DNA of 64,000 nucleotides. It comes from Crenobacter luteus (GTDB lineage Bacteria; Pseudomonadota; Gammaproteobacteria; Burkholderiales; Chromobacteriaceae). This document shows, piece after piece, positions 16,986 through 60,689 of the stretch (position 1 is the first letter of the stretch; each line of letters starts with the position of its first letter). Where the stretch lies: the NCBI RefSeq assembly GCF_004345725.1, contig NZ_SLXG01000016.1:1-64000 (forward strand), given 5' to 3'. The translations under genes were made by a program, and so were the position numbers. The notes below the pieces were generated by a model. The model was not told the origin of the DNA, did no database searches, and saw only the letters and a program-made list of their open reading frames with translations.

Positions 16986-17021
16986 GACAAGGGCTCGGCC
17001 AACGTTGGCCGAGCCCTTGTC
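16986..17021. terminator. 36-bp perfect palindrome of two repeats, ntrC/MscS bidirectional terminator
   Basis: Bases 16986-17021 are perfectly self-complementary. The centre is a CTCGGCCAAC (16994-17003) joined directly to GTTGGCCGAG (17004-17013). It lies 16 nt after ntrC and 42 nt from the convergent MscS-like gene stop. The T-content after the stem is modest on each side. Confidence 0.75.
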
Positions 17022-55540: not shown

Positions 55541-55665
55541 GTACGCGCCCGACGGGCGCGTGCCGTGCTTGAAAATACCCCGCCGCCGGCCAGGCGGCGC
55601 TGCGACAAAGTCAAAACGCGTGGCCGCCCGCTGCGGCCTCGGCGGTTTTGTCGGGGAGACCCTCC

Positions 55666-57024
55666 ATGTTTGAAAAAATCCTTATTGCGAACCGTGGCGA
55701 AATCGCGCTGCGCATCCAGCGCGCCTGCCGCGAAATGGGCATCAAGACCGTGGTCGTCCATTCCGAGGCCGACCGCGAAGCCAAGTACGTCAAACTGGCC
55801 GACGAATCGGTCTGCATCGGCCCGGCACCGTCGATCAAGAGCTACCTGCACGTGCCGGCCATCATCTCGGCCGCCGAGGTGACCGACTCTCAGGCCATCC
55901 ACCCGGGCTACGGCTTCCTGTCCGAAAACGCCGACTTCGCCGACCGCGTCGAGCAGTCCGGCTTCGTGTTCATCGGCCCGCGCGGCGACACCATCCGCCA
56001 GATGGGCGACAAGGTCGCCGCCAAGGACGCGATGATCGCCGCCGGCGTGCCGTGCGTGCCCGGTTCCGACGGCGCGCTGCCGGACGACCCGGCGCAGATT
56101 GTCAAGATCGCCAAGAAGATCGGCTTCCCGGTCATCATCAAGGCCGCCGGCGGCGGCGGCGGTCGCGGCATGCGCGTGGTGCACACCGAGGCGGCGCTGA
56201 TCAACTCGGTCAACATGACCCGCACCGAGGCGGCCGCGGCGTTCGGCAACCCGACCGTGTACATGGAGAAGTTCCTCGAACACCCGCGCCACATCGAGAT
56301 CCAGGTGCTGGCCGACGAGTACGGCAACGCGATCTACCTGGGCGAACGCGACTGCTCGATGCAGCGCCGCCACCAGAAGATCATCGAGGAAGCGCCGGCG
56401 CCCGGCATCACCGACGCGCAGCGCAAGAAGATCGGCGAAGCGTGCGCGGCCGCGTGCCGCCGCATCGGCTACCGCGGCGCCGGCACCTTCGAATTCCTGT
56501 TCGAGAACGGCGAGTTCTACTTCATCGAGATGAACACCCGCGTGCAGGTCGAGCACCCGGTGACCGAGATGATCACCGGCATCGACATCGTGCAGGAGCA
56601 GATCCGCATCGCCGCCGGCGAGAAGCTGCGCTACACCCAGGACGACGTGGTGCTGCGCGGCCACGCGATGGAGTGCCGCATCAACGCCGAGGACCCGTTC
56701 ACCTTCGTGCCGAGCCCGGGCAAGATCGAGAGCTACCACCCGGCCGGCGGCCCCGGCATCCGTATCGACTCGCACATCTATCAGGGCTACACCGTACCGC
56801 CGCACTATGATTCGATGGTCGGCAAGCTGATTTCCTACGGCGACACCCGCGACCAGGCGATGGCGCGCATGCGCGTCGCGCTGTCGGAGATGGCGATCAC
56901 CGGCATCAAGACCAATATCCCGCTGCACCAGGAGCTGTTCATGGACGGCGCCTTCCAGAAGGGCGGCACCACCATCCACTATCTGGAAGAACGCCTGTCG
57001 CAGCTGAAGAAGGGAGACGTGTGA
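55666..57024 (+). CDS. accC: Biotin carboxylase AccC
   Basis: Carboxylates the biotin on AccB using ATP and bicarbonate. The start [25 protein letters not shown] is the family N-terminus; ATP-grasp features include [12 protein letters not shown] and the biotin-carboxylase signature [25 protein letters not shown]. The length is 452 aa. GGGGAG lies 9-10 nt before the ATG at 55666. It overlaps prmA by one base. Confidence 0.97.
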
Positions 57025-57920
57025 TGGCTTGGCAACAGGCCAGTATCGATACCGACAGCCGCGTCGCCGAGGCGCTCGCCGACGCGCTGATGGAGGCCGG
57101 CGCGCTGTCGGCCGCCATCGAGGATGCGTGGGCCGGCACCGAGCAGGAAGAACCGATCTTCGGCGAGCCGGGCGAGCCGGTCGACAAGCTGTGGCAGAAG
57201 AGCCGCATCCTCGCGCTGTTCGCCGACGACGCCGACGTCGGCGCGCTGATCGCGCTGGCGGCGCTGGCCGCCGGCGCGCCGACGCCGGCGTTCACGCTCG
57301 AAACGGTCGAAGAGCAGGACTGGGTGCGGCTGACGCAGAGCCAGTTCGACCCGATCCGCATCTCCGACCGGCTGTGGATCACGCCGACCTGGCACGAGGC
57401 GCCCAACCCGCAGGCGGTGAACCTGCAGCTCGACCCGGGCCTCGCCTTCGGCACCGGCAGCCACCCGACCACGCGGCTGTGCCTGCAGTGGCTGGACGCG
57501 CACATCCAGGGCGGCGAGACGGTGTTCGACTACGGCTGCGGCTCCGGCATCCTCGCGATCGCCGCGCTCAAGCTCGGCGCCGCCAGCGCCGTCGGCGTCG
57601 ACATCGACCCGCAGGCGGTCAAGTCCAGCCGCGACAACGCCGCGCAGAACGGCGTGGTCGCCGAGTTCTTCCTGCCCGACGACGCGCCGGCGATCCAGGC
57701 CGACGTCGTGCTCGCCAACATCCTCGCCAACCCCTTGCGGCTCCTGGGCGAACTGCTGGCCGGTCACGTCAAGCCCGGCGGCAAGATCGTGCTGTCCGGC
57801 ATCCTCGCCGACCAGGCCGCCGAACTGTCCGGCATCTACTCGGCCTGGTTCGACATGGACCCGCCGGTCTTCGACGAAGGCTGGACCCGACTCACCGGAA
57901 CCCGACGCGCGACCGTATGA
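57024..57920 (+). CDS. prmA: Ribosomal protein L11 methyltransferase PrmA
   Basis: Trimethylates L11. The 298-residue protein has the N-terminal L11-recognition domain (1-60), a linker, and the SAM domain with LDPGLAFGTGSHPTTRLCLQWL, VFDYGCGSGILAIAALKLG and ANILANPL. The ATG at 57024 shares its A with the accC stop; GGGAG is upstream. The accC-prmA order is widespread. Confidence 0.95.
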   Translation: MAWQQASIDTDSRVAEALADALMEAGALSAAIEDAWAGTEQEEPIFGEPGEPVDKLWQKSRILALFADDADVGALIALAALAAGAPTPAFTLETVEEQDWVRLTQSQFDPIRISDRLWITPTWHEAPNPQAVNLQLDPGLAFGTGSHPTTRLCLQWLDAHIQGGETVFDYGCGSGILAIAALKLGAASAVGVDIDPQAVKSSRDNAAQNGVVAEFFLPDDAPAIQADVVLANILANPLRLLGELLAGHVKPGGKIVLSGILADQAAELSGIYSAWFDMDPPVFDEGWTRLTGTRRATV

Positions 57921-58984
57921 ACCACGCTACCCAGTGCCCGAGCTGCCAGACCCGTTTCAAGGTGACCGACGCCCAGCTGGCGGCCGCCGAGGGCATGGTC
58001 CGCTGCGGGCGCTGCGCGCACGTGTTCAACGCGCGTGAACACCTCGAAGGCCAGACGCCGCCGCCGGCCCCGCCGGCGAGCGCTGCCGACGACTTCGAGC
58101 TCGAGCTGCCCGACTTCGACCCCATCCTGCCACCCGGTGTCGCGCCGGACGACGCAGCGCCCGAGCCGGCGCCACCGCCGGTCGAGCCCACCGCGATGGC
58201 TGCCCCCGCCGACGCGGCCTCCGAGGCCGGCGAGCGGAACGACGACCTCGACGTGTTCGAGCGCGCGCTCAAGGAGGCGATGAACGGCGGCCGCCGCGAG
58301 CCGAGCGCCACCCGCATCGAGACCCTGGCCGACGCCGGCGACGAGCGCCGCGCCCCCGTCGAGACCGCCTCCGCGGCCGAGCACCCCGAGCACCCCGAAC
58401 CGGCCGAGGCGCCGGAAGCGCCCCTCCCCCTCGCCGCGCCCGAGCCGGCCGCCGCACGCGACGACGACGCGGAGGAAGACGACGAGCCCGGCCCCAGCCG
58501 CGCGCTGCTGATGACGCTGATCTTCGCGCTGCTGTCGCTGCTCGCGCTGTTGCTGCTGCTCGGCCAACTGGTCTACTTCAACCGCACCCGCATCGCCGCC
58601 GAGGTGCCCGAGCTGCGCCCGACGCTCGAGGCGGCCTGCCGCCCCCTGGGCTGCAGCGTGCCGCTGCCCGGCGACGCCGAGGCGATCCGCACCGAATGGT
58701 CGGAACTGTCCTTCGTGCCCGAGCACGCCCATCTGGTCCAGGTGTCGGCGACGCTGAAGAACCACGCGCCCTACCCGCAAGCCTTCCCGGCGATGGAGCT
58801 GACGCTGAAGGACGACGACGACCAGGTGCTGGTCAGGCGCAACTTCGCCGCCTCCGACTACCTGAAGCCGGACGATTTCAAGGCGGGCTACCTGCCCGGC
58901 AACGGCGAGGTCAAGGTGACGATGAAGCTCGACACCGGCAAGCTCAAGCCGCAGGGCTACAGCCTGCTGTGGTTCTACCCCTGA
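57917..58984 (+). CDS. Zinc-ribbon and DUF3426 domain membrane protein
   Basis: A 355-residue protein with an N-terminal MJ0042-type zinc ribbon (Cys7, Cys10, Cys30, Cys33; CPSCQTRFKV and VRCGRCAHVF), a long acidic Pro/Ala/Glu linker (about 45-192), one membrane helix (about 197-219) and a C-terminal periplasmic DUF3426 domain. The helix places the zinc ribbon in the cytoplasm. Function unknown. It overlaps prmA by 4 nt; the accC-prmA-DUF3426 order is common in Betaproteobacteria. A repeat copy (58559-58568) codes LGQL in the helix end. Confidence 0.85.
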   Translation: MNHATQCPSCQTRFKVTDAQLAAAEGMVRCGRCAHVFNAREHLEGQTPPPAPPASAADDFELELPDFDPILPPGVAPDDAAPEPAPPPVEPTAMAAPADAASEAGERNDDLDVFERALKEAMNGGRREPSATRIETLADAGDERRAPVETASAAEHPEHPEPAEAPEAPLPLAAPEPAAARDDDAEEDDEPGPSRALLMTLIFALLSLLALLLLLGQLVYFNRTRIAAEVPELRPTLEAACRPLGCSVPLPGDAEAIRTEWSELSFVPEHAHLVQVSATLKNHAPYPQAFPAMELTLKDDDDQVLVRRNFAASDYLKPDDFKAGYLPGNGEVKVTMKLDTGKLKPQGYSLLWFYP

Positions 58985-59004
58985 GACCCACCCCACCCGA
59001 GACG

Positions 59005-59028
59005 ACCGCACATCCCGTGCGGTTTTTT
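59005..59028 (+). terminator. Terminator of the accBC-prmA-DUF3426 operon
   Basis: A 7-bp stem (59005-59011 with 59017-59023) followed by six T, 20 nt after the DUF3426 stop. Confidence 0.75.
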
Positions 59029-59087
59029 CTTGTTTTTCCGCCATGCTCGGCCACGATGAGAAACACCATCACCGAAAGGGGAAAGAC

Positions 59088-59624
59088 ATGGACGGCTTCC
59101 GACTGCAGGTGGGCGAGGACAGGCTGCGCGTCGACGGCGACTTTCCGCGCCCCGGGGACTGGATGCCGAGCTTCATGCTGGTCGACGAGACGCTGAACGA
59201 CGTGTCGCTCGAGGCCTTCCTCGGCCAACCCAAGACGCTGATCACGCTCTTGTCGCTCGACGAGGAACGGCACGGCGGCATGGCGCTGCTGCGCGCAACG
59301 CTCGCGCGGCTCGAACGTTGGCCGAGCCTTGCCCGCATCGTCGTCACCATCGACTCGCCGTTCGCGCTGGCGCGCGTACGGCGCGAGCACGGCCTGCCCG
59401 GCGTCACGCTGCTCTCGACGCTGCGCGGGCGCGACTTCCACCGCCGCTACGGCGTGCTGATCGCCGACCACCCGCTGTCCGGCTTTACCGCACCGGCGCT
59501 GATCGTCGGCGACGGCGACGACCACGTCGTCCACGCCGAGCGGCTGGCCGACGTCGACGACCACTTCGACTGGCTCGCCTGCGAGGCCGCGATGTCGCGG
59601 CTGTTCCCGGCGCTGCCGGCCTGA
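59088..59624 (+). CDS. Thiol-peroxidase (Tpx)-like protein lacking both catalytic cysteines
   Basis: A 178-residue thioredoxin-fold protein clearly related to Tpx: MPSFMLVDETLNDVSLEAFLG, VTIDSPFALARVRREHGLPG, VTLLSTLRGRDFHRRYGVLIADHPLSGF. In Tpx the peroxidatic Cys sits in a TPVC-type motif after SLD; here the stretch reads SLDEERHGG (56-64). The resolving Cys region reads RREHG. The only Cys is 165. Peroxidase activity by the known mechanism is therefore unlikely; a binding or regulatory role is possible. AAGGGGA lies before the ATG. Two exact repeat copies (59220 and 59317) lie within 107 bp. Confidence 0.8.
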   Translation: MDGFRLQVGEDRLRVDGDFPRPGDWMPSFMLVDETLNDVSLEAFLGQPKTLITLLSLDEERHGGMALLRATLARLERWPSLARIVVTIDSPFALARVRREHGLPGVTLLSTLRGRDFHRRYGVLIADHPLSGFTAPALIVGDGDDHVVHAERLADVDDHFDWLACEAAMSRLFPALPA

Positions 59625-59638
59625 GCGCCGCGACAAAA

Positions 59639-59667
59639 GAAACGGGCTGCCAGCGGCAGCCCGTTTC
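59639..59667. terminator. Bidirectional terminator between the Tpx-like gene and gpsA
   Basis: A 13-bp perfect stem (59639-59651 with 59655-59667), AGC loop, between convergent stops, with A-rich and T-rich flanks. Confidence 0.8.
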
Positions 59668-59684: not shown

Positions 59685-60689
59685 TCAGGCGAGCCGCTCG
59701 CCCGCCTCCGACTTGGGTGCCCGGCCCATCAGGTCGCCGACCACCTGCTGCGGGCTGGCGCCGTGGTAGAGCAGCGCGCACACCGCCGCCGTGATCGGCA
59801 TGTCGACCTCGAGCCGCTCGGCCATGGTCAGCACCTCGCGCGCGGTCGGCACGCCCTCGGCGACGTGGCCGAGCTCCTCGAGGATCACCGGCAGCGACTT
59901 GCCCTCGGCCAGCTTCAGCCCGACCTGACGGTTGCGCGACAGCGTGCCGGTACAGGTCAGGATCAGGTCGCCCATGCCGGCCAGCCCCATCATCGTCTGC
60001 GGACTGGCGCCGAGCGCGACCGCAAGGCGGCTGATCTCGGCCAGGCCGCGCGTGATCAGCGCCGCGCGCGCGTTCATGCCGAAGCCGAGGCCGTCGGCGA
60101 CGCCGGTGGCGATCGCCATCACGTTCTTCACCGCGCCGCCGACCTCGACGCCGACCAGATCGTCGTTGGCGTACAGCCGCAGACGGGTGCTGTTCAGCGC
60201 CAGCGCGGTACGGCGCGCGAAGGCGGCGTCCTCGGACGCGAGCGTGACCGCGCAGGGCAGCCCCTGCGCGACCTCGAGCGCGAAGCTCGGCCCGGACAGC
60301 GCGCCCGCGGCGGGCAGCGCGGGCAGCTCCTCGGCGACCACCTGGTGCGGCAGCAGGCTCGAGCCGGCCTCGAAGCCCTTGCACGCCCACAACAGCGGCG
60401 GCAGCGGTTGGCCGAGCGCGGCGAGCGCCCTGAGCGTCGGCCGCAGCCCGGCGATCGGCGTGACCACCAGCAAGAGTTCGGCGCCGGCCACCGCGCCCGC
60501 GAGGTCGGCCGTCAGCGCGAGCGACGCCGGCAGCGCGACGCCCGGCAGGTAACGCGCGTTCTCGCGCGCCGCCCGCATCGCGTCGACCTGTTCGGCGTTG
60601 CGCGCCCACAGCGTGACGTCGTGCTCGGCCGCGTAGGCGAGTGCGAGCGCCGTGCCCCAGGCGCCGGCTCCCAGTACCGCGATCTTCAT
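59685..60689 (-). CDS. gpsA: Glycerol-3-phosphate dehydrogenase [NAD(P)+] GpsA
   Basis: Reduces dihydroxyacetone phosphate to glycerol-3-phosphate for phospholipids. Rossmann motif [10 protein letters not shown] (7-16), [17 protein letters not shown], the catalytic Lys in [11 protein letters not shown] and [15 protein letters not shown] are present; 334 aa. It starts 1 nt after the SH3-protein stop. A repeat copy (60407) is internal. It is the last gene of the secB-SH3-gpsA run. Confidence 0.95.

Follow-up and report, generated by a model that had tools for sequence, protein, structure and literature searches.

A gene on the plus strand at positions 59088 to 59624 of the 64,000-nucleotide stretch of Crenobacter luteus DNA that we analyzed (the window) encodes a 178-residue protein that is related to thiol peroxidase (Tpx) and in which neither redox cysteine remains. 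Our preferred reading, to which we assign a probability of about 0.6, is that the protein is a pseudo-peroxiredoxin: a displaced native Tpx, catalytically dead, that is kept under selection as a nonredox binding protein, most likely one that pairs with the working Tpx or regulates it, or one that holds a ligand or client. Judged by their residues and substitution patterns, the Cys-less Tpx proteins are very probably both catalytically dead and maintained; that the mechanism is specifically a partnership with the working Tpx is a much more tentative proposal. In several bacterial families the whole catalytic set was removed while the fold persisted, and one such protein already has a solved structure; this constitutes a natural experiment, and the matched dead and working Tpx within one genome provide a means to test the peroxiredoxin fold without redox chemistry.

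The open reading frame lies at the coordinates given in the original prediction; an in-frame ATG is also found upstream, at 59043, and the alignment of orthologues favors the start at 59088. Against the NF001808 thiol peroxidase profile, the protein scored 79.2 bits (E 2e-22), below the curated cut-off of 123 bits, and its Pfam Redoxin score was exactly at the cut-off. Together with the nearest solved protein being 3KEB (E 4e-59), these searches bore out the Tpx homology claimed in the original prediction. An AlphaFold model built from 6 sequences (pLDDT 81, pTM 0.81) has the Tpx fold: its best match in the PDB is 3KEB (TM 0.88), and ranks 3 to 33 of the structure matches consist of thiol peroxidase entries and two peroxiredoxins with other names, 3P7X and 2YZH. 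Canonical Tpx structures (E. coli 1QXH and 3HVS, Yersinia 2XPD) share the fold at a TM of 0.76 to 0.81. Canonical Tpx proteins of the NF001808 type resemble the window protein in length and in the LST-R-F-YGV region but contain PxxxTxxC, Cys95 and Arg133, all of which are gone in the window protein. A normal Tpx paralogue with intact TPVC and FC is encoded in the window's own genome (G000:C17:14352) and is 33% identical.

The 3KEB entry, released in 2009 as "Thiol peroxidase from Chromobacterium violaceum" and containing four chains, is an orthologue with 54% identity to the window protein. Its catalytic columns carry the same residues as those of the window protein (Leu, Glu, Gly, Arg and Pro), and it differs by a C terminus that is ~42 residues longer; its deposited enzyme name is unsupported by its own residues. 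The chain is the protein of our locus L028 and, over 220 residues, shows no difference from that encoded by genome G029. Charged, helix-like C-terminal extensions of up to ~45 residues are present in many orthologues of genera g3 and g7 (L004, L008, L010, L018, L028 and others) and lacking in the window protein.

We refer to the catalytic columns as Pro54, Thr58, Cys61, Cys95 and Arg133, which we take to be the E. coli Tpx numbering, with the Arg133 column presumably holding the catalytic Arg of Tpx. According to the alignment columns, the former peroxidatic loop covers residues 55 to 66 of the window protein (59250 to 59285, plus strand), where Pro54 has become Leu55, Asp58 is kept, Thr58 has become Glu59 and Cys61 has become Gly64, residues 62 and 63 being a two-residue insert. 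In the same alignment, the former resolving Cys95 column is Arg98 (59379 to 59381, plus strand), the former Arg133 column is Pro136 (59493 to 59495, plus strand) and an LSTLRGRDFH block spans residues 109 to 118 (59412 to 59441, plus strand). The alignment thus confirmed the replacement of the peroxidatic Cys, by Gly, and of the resolving Cys, by Arg, that had been read from the sequence, but the losses had been understated, as Pro54, Thr58 and Arg133 have also changed, to Leu, Glu and Pro. The description of the protein as cysteine-free holds for the two redox sites; a single Cys remains at residue 165 (LACEAA), at neither of them, and it is not conserved, the rows of the family containing zero to two Cys each.

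According to PMC5719442, peroxiredoxins are characterized by a P-x3-T/S-x2-C active-site pattern and by one active-site Arg that is strictly conserved across them. The three columns of this pattern hold Leu, Glu and Gly in the window protein, and all 33 rows of its family have Pro in the Arg133 column and Arg in the column of Cys95, the resolving residue of atypical 2-Cys Tpx. In a nematode peroxiredoxin belonging to another subfamily, a mutant lacking both Cys had undetectable activity, as reported in PMC6617597. On these residues, the window protein would be unable to reduce peroxides, and their loss suggests a nonredox role.

The Cys-less gene was found in 53 of the 61 genomes of the window's family. 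In 52 of these, the copy appears as one long match (E < 1e-49), and none of the 53 has a stop inside the match; the sole split copy, lying over two frames, is in G044, whose draft assembly has a completeness of 80% and a contamination of 7%. The gene is absent from the remaining eight family genomes: G009 (only 61% complete), G024, G030 to G033, G035 and G036. Among 300 genomes sampled at the level of the order, 70 had a match at E up to 1e-25, and at the level of the class, 3 of 369 did, one of them the window's own genome. The matches outside the family are a mix of Cys-bearing and Cys-less proteins. A scan of contigs gave five loci from named genera, Aquitalea and Pseudogulbenkiania.

The rows of our alignment come from 201 Tpx-like proteins extracted from the fetched loci, 135 of them distinct. 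Sixty rows are Cys-less, 33 from the window's family (f1) and the others from four further families of the order (f5, 10; f22, 10; f32, 4; f51, 3). In the Cys61 column, these have Gly in 57 rows and Ser in 3, all three from f51; in the window protein and its family, no replacement nucleophile occupies the active-site position. Cys95 and Arg133 are missing in 60/60 and Thr58 is gone in 58/60, with the Arg133 column holding Pro in f1 and f51 and Thr or Ser in f5, f22 and f32; Pro54 is lost only in f1 and f51 (36 rows). The 75 Cys-bearing rows have Pro54, Thr58, Cys61 and Arg133 without exception and Cys95 in 74. Residues 110 to 118 (STLRGRDFH) are identical in 91 to 100% of the rows in each Cys-less group, the three f51 rows included, and in f1 and f51 Pro136, Arg152, Leu153 and Phe160 are innovations that do not vary.

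The Cys-less proteins of f5, f22 and f32, encoded in tandem with a canonical Tpx, thus resemble the window protein in their branch of the tree, their genomic place, the Gly at Cys61 and the lack of Arg133 but differ in retaining Pro54, in lacking the two-residue insert and in the Thr or Ser of the Arg133 column. All nine of the tandem proteins considered exceeded the NF001808 cut-off of 123, at 145 to 172 bits, with 172 bits for one that was scanned directly, and such proteins would therefore be named as enzymes under that rule. "Thiol peroxidase" labels, the curated NCBIfam rule included, reach proteins without catalytic residues. Titles, abstract openings and text passages in the open-access literature gave no work treating Cys-less Tpx or 3KEB, and a mention within the full text of a paper is possible.

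With the two Cys columns masked, a 107-row tree puts the Cys-less rows together on one side of a single branch (100/99). The split recurred (99/99) in a 77-row tree that excluded the long f51 sequences and masked every catalytic column as well as the entire loop. The Cys-less protein is cleanly separated from the genuine Tpx paralogues encoded in its own genomes; f1 and f51 are on long branches. The nearest Cys-bearing rows are Tpx of an LSTLRGRDFH group from nine other families of the order (f14, f15, f28, f33, f35, f43, f45, f47 and f50), which differ from the window protein in having a complete catalytic set, save for one f35 row lacking the resolving Cys only. This protein (L042, from G217) retains the peroxidatic Cys, but Arg takes the place of the resolving one, which makes it a one-Cys member of the group. 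The additional Tpx copies of G076, G083 and G307 belong to another type, which is Cys-bearing but has no resolving Cys, and are unrelated. The root is not inferred from the tree; since the two relatives read at class level both carry the Cys, we set it among the Cys-bearing rows. Most simply, the catalytic set would have been dismantled once, and the synteny described below agrees with one origin; two independent losses appear less likely, with AU tests rejecting neither of the alternative trees tried (p 0.36 and 0.23, the latter requiring two losses).

Within the window, the Cys-less gene follows three conserved plus-strand neighbors: a gene that we take from its sequence to be accC (55666 to 57024 in marker-protein coordinates, with a start at 55648 in the ORF list), another that we likewise take to be prmA (57021 to 57920) and, immediately upstream, a gene for a protein with an MJ0042 zinc ribbon and DUF3426 (57917 to 58984). 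Downstream lies a convergent minus-strand gene, presumably gpsA (59685 to 60689). The original prediction credited the Cys-less gene with its own terminator, which is only partly borne out. In the hairpin behind the gene (59639 to 59667), the T-run is that of the minus strand, fitting the convergent gpsA; a plus-strand terminator-like hairpin does exist but lies upstream, between the DUF3426 and Cys-less genes (59004 to 59024).

Across 12-kb loci, the order accC-prmA-DUF3426 followed by the Cys-less gene was seen in six of seven f1 loci, all six with convergent gpsA downstream (~2 kb off in L097); in the seventh (L096, from G021) the Cys-less gene is elsewhere. All five loci of f5, f22 and f32 have DUF3426, the Cys-less gene and a canonical Tpx in this order, with gaps of 16, 17, 93, 139 and 165 bases between the two Tpx genes; prmA was seen in four and accC in three of these, L104 ending just behind DUF3426. 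In f51, the Cys-less gene is beside gpsA and away from DUF3426 (2/2 loci). The shared place of the Cys-less genes is therefore behind prmA-DUF3426 in four families and beside gpsA in two. In f14, it is a Cys-bearing Tpx that comes after DUF3426, 91 and 622 bases away in the two loci. The f1 genome G030, in which the Cys-less gene is absent, has the DUF3426 gene followed directly by gpsA; this junction and the absence from 8 of the 61 family genomes indicate that the gene is dispensable.

We assessed co-occurrence in 58 chosen genomes by counting Tpx proteins over the cut-off. A canonical Tpx was present in 19 of the 21 examined genomes with the Cys-less gene, and its Cys could be read in 16 of the 19 (not in G021, G044 and G050); where seen in f1, the working Tpx is unlinked to the Cys-less gene. 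No canonical Tpx match was obtained from G191 (100% complete) and G318 (87%), both f51 genomes with the Cys-less gene, and a canonical partner is thus not obligatory. All 15 genomes from the nine families of the Cys-bearing LSTLRGRDFH group have a single Tpx over the cut-off, and it belongs to that group; its Cys was read in all 15.

To evaluate selection, we computed dN/dS with the Nei–Gojobori method (NG86) for within-genus pairs at dS < 1.5, a measure that is crude on GC-rich genes. The single pair from the window's genus gave 0.37 for the Cys-less gene and 0.34 for the canonical Tpx (g1), and the medians in the five other f1 genera with usable pairs were 0.07 to 0.27; single Cys-less pairs ranged from 0.009 to 0.47. 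Where Cys-less and canonical genes could be compared elsewhere, the values were 0.10 and 0.14 in g31 (f22), 0.17 and 0.20 in g110, and 0.19 and 0.15 in g77. The gene had been called maintained rather than decaying, and per-genus medians of 0.07 to 0.37, well below 1, agree. The Cys-bearing single Tpx of f14, f15, f33 and f50 have a dN/dS of 0.04 to 0.10. These values are below those of five of the six genera in f1, where constraint is thus mostly looser than on these working Tpx. Of 52 core positions of Cys-bearing Tpx, 32 are kept in f5, f22 and f32 and 21 each in f1 and f51; among the five catalytic positions, the counts are 1, 0 and 0 (Fisher p 0.07 each), and f1 has also lost 26 of the 47 noncatalytic ones. 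A selective erasure of catalytic over other core positions is, with so few positions, a trend only and was not retained as a result. As a whole, the reading of a maintained, nonredox Tpx fold is upheld by the lack of a substitute nucleophile, by dN/dS below 1 and by the separation in the tree, the nonredox role itself being deduced from the residues.

The preferred reading would explain these patterns as follows. In the ancestor of these families, the native Tpx would have stood behind accC-prmA-DUF3426. A second, working Tpx of another subgroup may then have displaced it, and most Cys-less lineages carry both. Relieved of catalysis, the native copy would have been stripped of its catalytic residues (in the window protein, Leu now stands at Pro54, Glu at Thr58, Gly at Cys61, Arg at Cys95 and Pro at Arg133), while the fold and a core of noncatalytic positions stayed under purifying selection. 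It would now act by binding, most likely by dimerizing with the working Tpx or regulating it, or by holding a Tpx-type ligand or client. Tpx dimers form across the A interface, according to PMC5719442. Since Tpx dimerize and the dead and live copies adjoin, a mixed dimer is our best single guess, held with well under even confidence; the absence of linkage in f1 and of a canonical Tpx in two f51 genomes speaks against it. A fuller version, in which a single-origin pseudoenzyme subfamily of five families tunes or stabilizes the working Tpx through mixed dimers, some formed from the adjacent tandem pair, seems doubtful to us as a complete account.

A ligand or client other than Tpx is about as likely as the mixed dimer. 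As a separate explanation, a binding protein unlinked to Tpx has a real though minority claim. Its emptied pocket and LSTLRGRDFH surface would take up a protein, a lipid or a metabolite, perhaps in connection with the functions of accBC, DUF3426 or gpsA. This explanation would suit f1, where the gene adjoins accC-prmA-DUF3426 and mostly gpsA and is away from the canonical Tpx, and f51, where it sits beside gpsA and two genomes are without a canonical Tpx; the new and invariant Pro136, Arg152, Leu153 and Phe160 in these two families also suggest a new surface. It fits less well with the place directly upstream of the canonical Tpx in f5, f22 and f32 and with the terminator-like site that, in the window, parts the upstream genes from the Cys-less gene. 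To our knowledge, the neighboring acc, DUF3426 and gpsA genes share no pathway, which weakens the proposed tie further.

A new catalysis might instead have arisen, with acidic and His residues (DExxHGG, REHGLP, RDFH) forming a metal site or a hydrolytic center. While His118 is invariant across the Cys-less groups and Asp58, Glu59 and His62 are common in f1, His62 is missing in genera g9 and g10 (Tyr or a gap) and outside f1, and His101 is Arg in some members of g7. Moreover, His118 also occurs in 66% of Cys-bearing sequences from the nearest subgroup and therefore predates the Cys loss; we rejected such a site as the main reading and consider it improbable. Slow decay of a displaced Tpx, marginally less probable still, would account for the family genomes without the gene, the long branches of f1 and f51 with their many other lost core positions, and a dN/dS in f1 mostly above that of the Cys-bearing single Tpx, but it conflicts with values well below 1 in every genus with usable pairs, near those of the canonical Tpx where both were compared. 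A relic would also hardly be free of internal stops in 53 family copies, with one split copy in a poor draft, or keep residues 110 to 118 at 91 to 100% in every Cys-less group. The remaining Cys165 could be taken as a sign of a sequencing or annotation artefact or of a Tpx with its Cys shifted elsewhere. This we regard as refuted, with practically no probability left to it: the same losses are shared by 33 distinct family proteins and the solved 3KEB chain, and Cys165 is unconserved.

The gene also contains two copies of a genus-specific, uptake-like 10-mer, CTCGGCCAAC, at 59220 to 59229 on the plus strand and 59317 to 59326 on the minus strand. The span of 107 bp for the pair is exactly as given in the original prediction, but the pair is not statistically remarkable. 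The window has 39 copies of CTCGGCCAAC where a third-order model expects 0.5, and random placement of 39 copies yields ~2.2 neighboring pairs at least as close as this one; two copies in one 537-bp gene have P ~0.04, and on both numbers the intragenic pair is unremarkable. Four pairs in the window are at most 97 bp apart, and the other three form short hairpins, which the gene's pair does not; close pairs are found, for example, at 16994/17004, 27401/27420 and 36581/36600, three sites that are inverted hairpins. We ruled out any connection of the repeats with the protein, since in G034, the second genome of the genus, the orthologous gene has neither copy.

The 10-mer was counted 1,590 times in the window's genome, 1,940 times in G034 and 13 to 165 times in the other 59 family genomes. 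Close pairs of Neisseria DNA uptake sequences form inverted hairpins, and CTCGGCCAAC looks like a genus-specific uptake sequence. No work on CTCGGCCAAC was found by title in the open-access literature; judged by their titles, the matches listed concern unrelated topics, with the 10-mer probably in primers. The highest count outside the genus, 165 copies in G035, is several times the family background and about one-tenth of the genus level; these copies are perhaps a remnant or a related dialect of CTCGGCCAAC. In both genomes of the genus, an inverted CTCGGCCAAC pair lies just behind the canonical tpx (L002:2040-2059 and L083:2064-2093).
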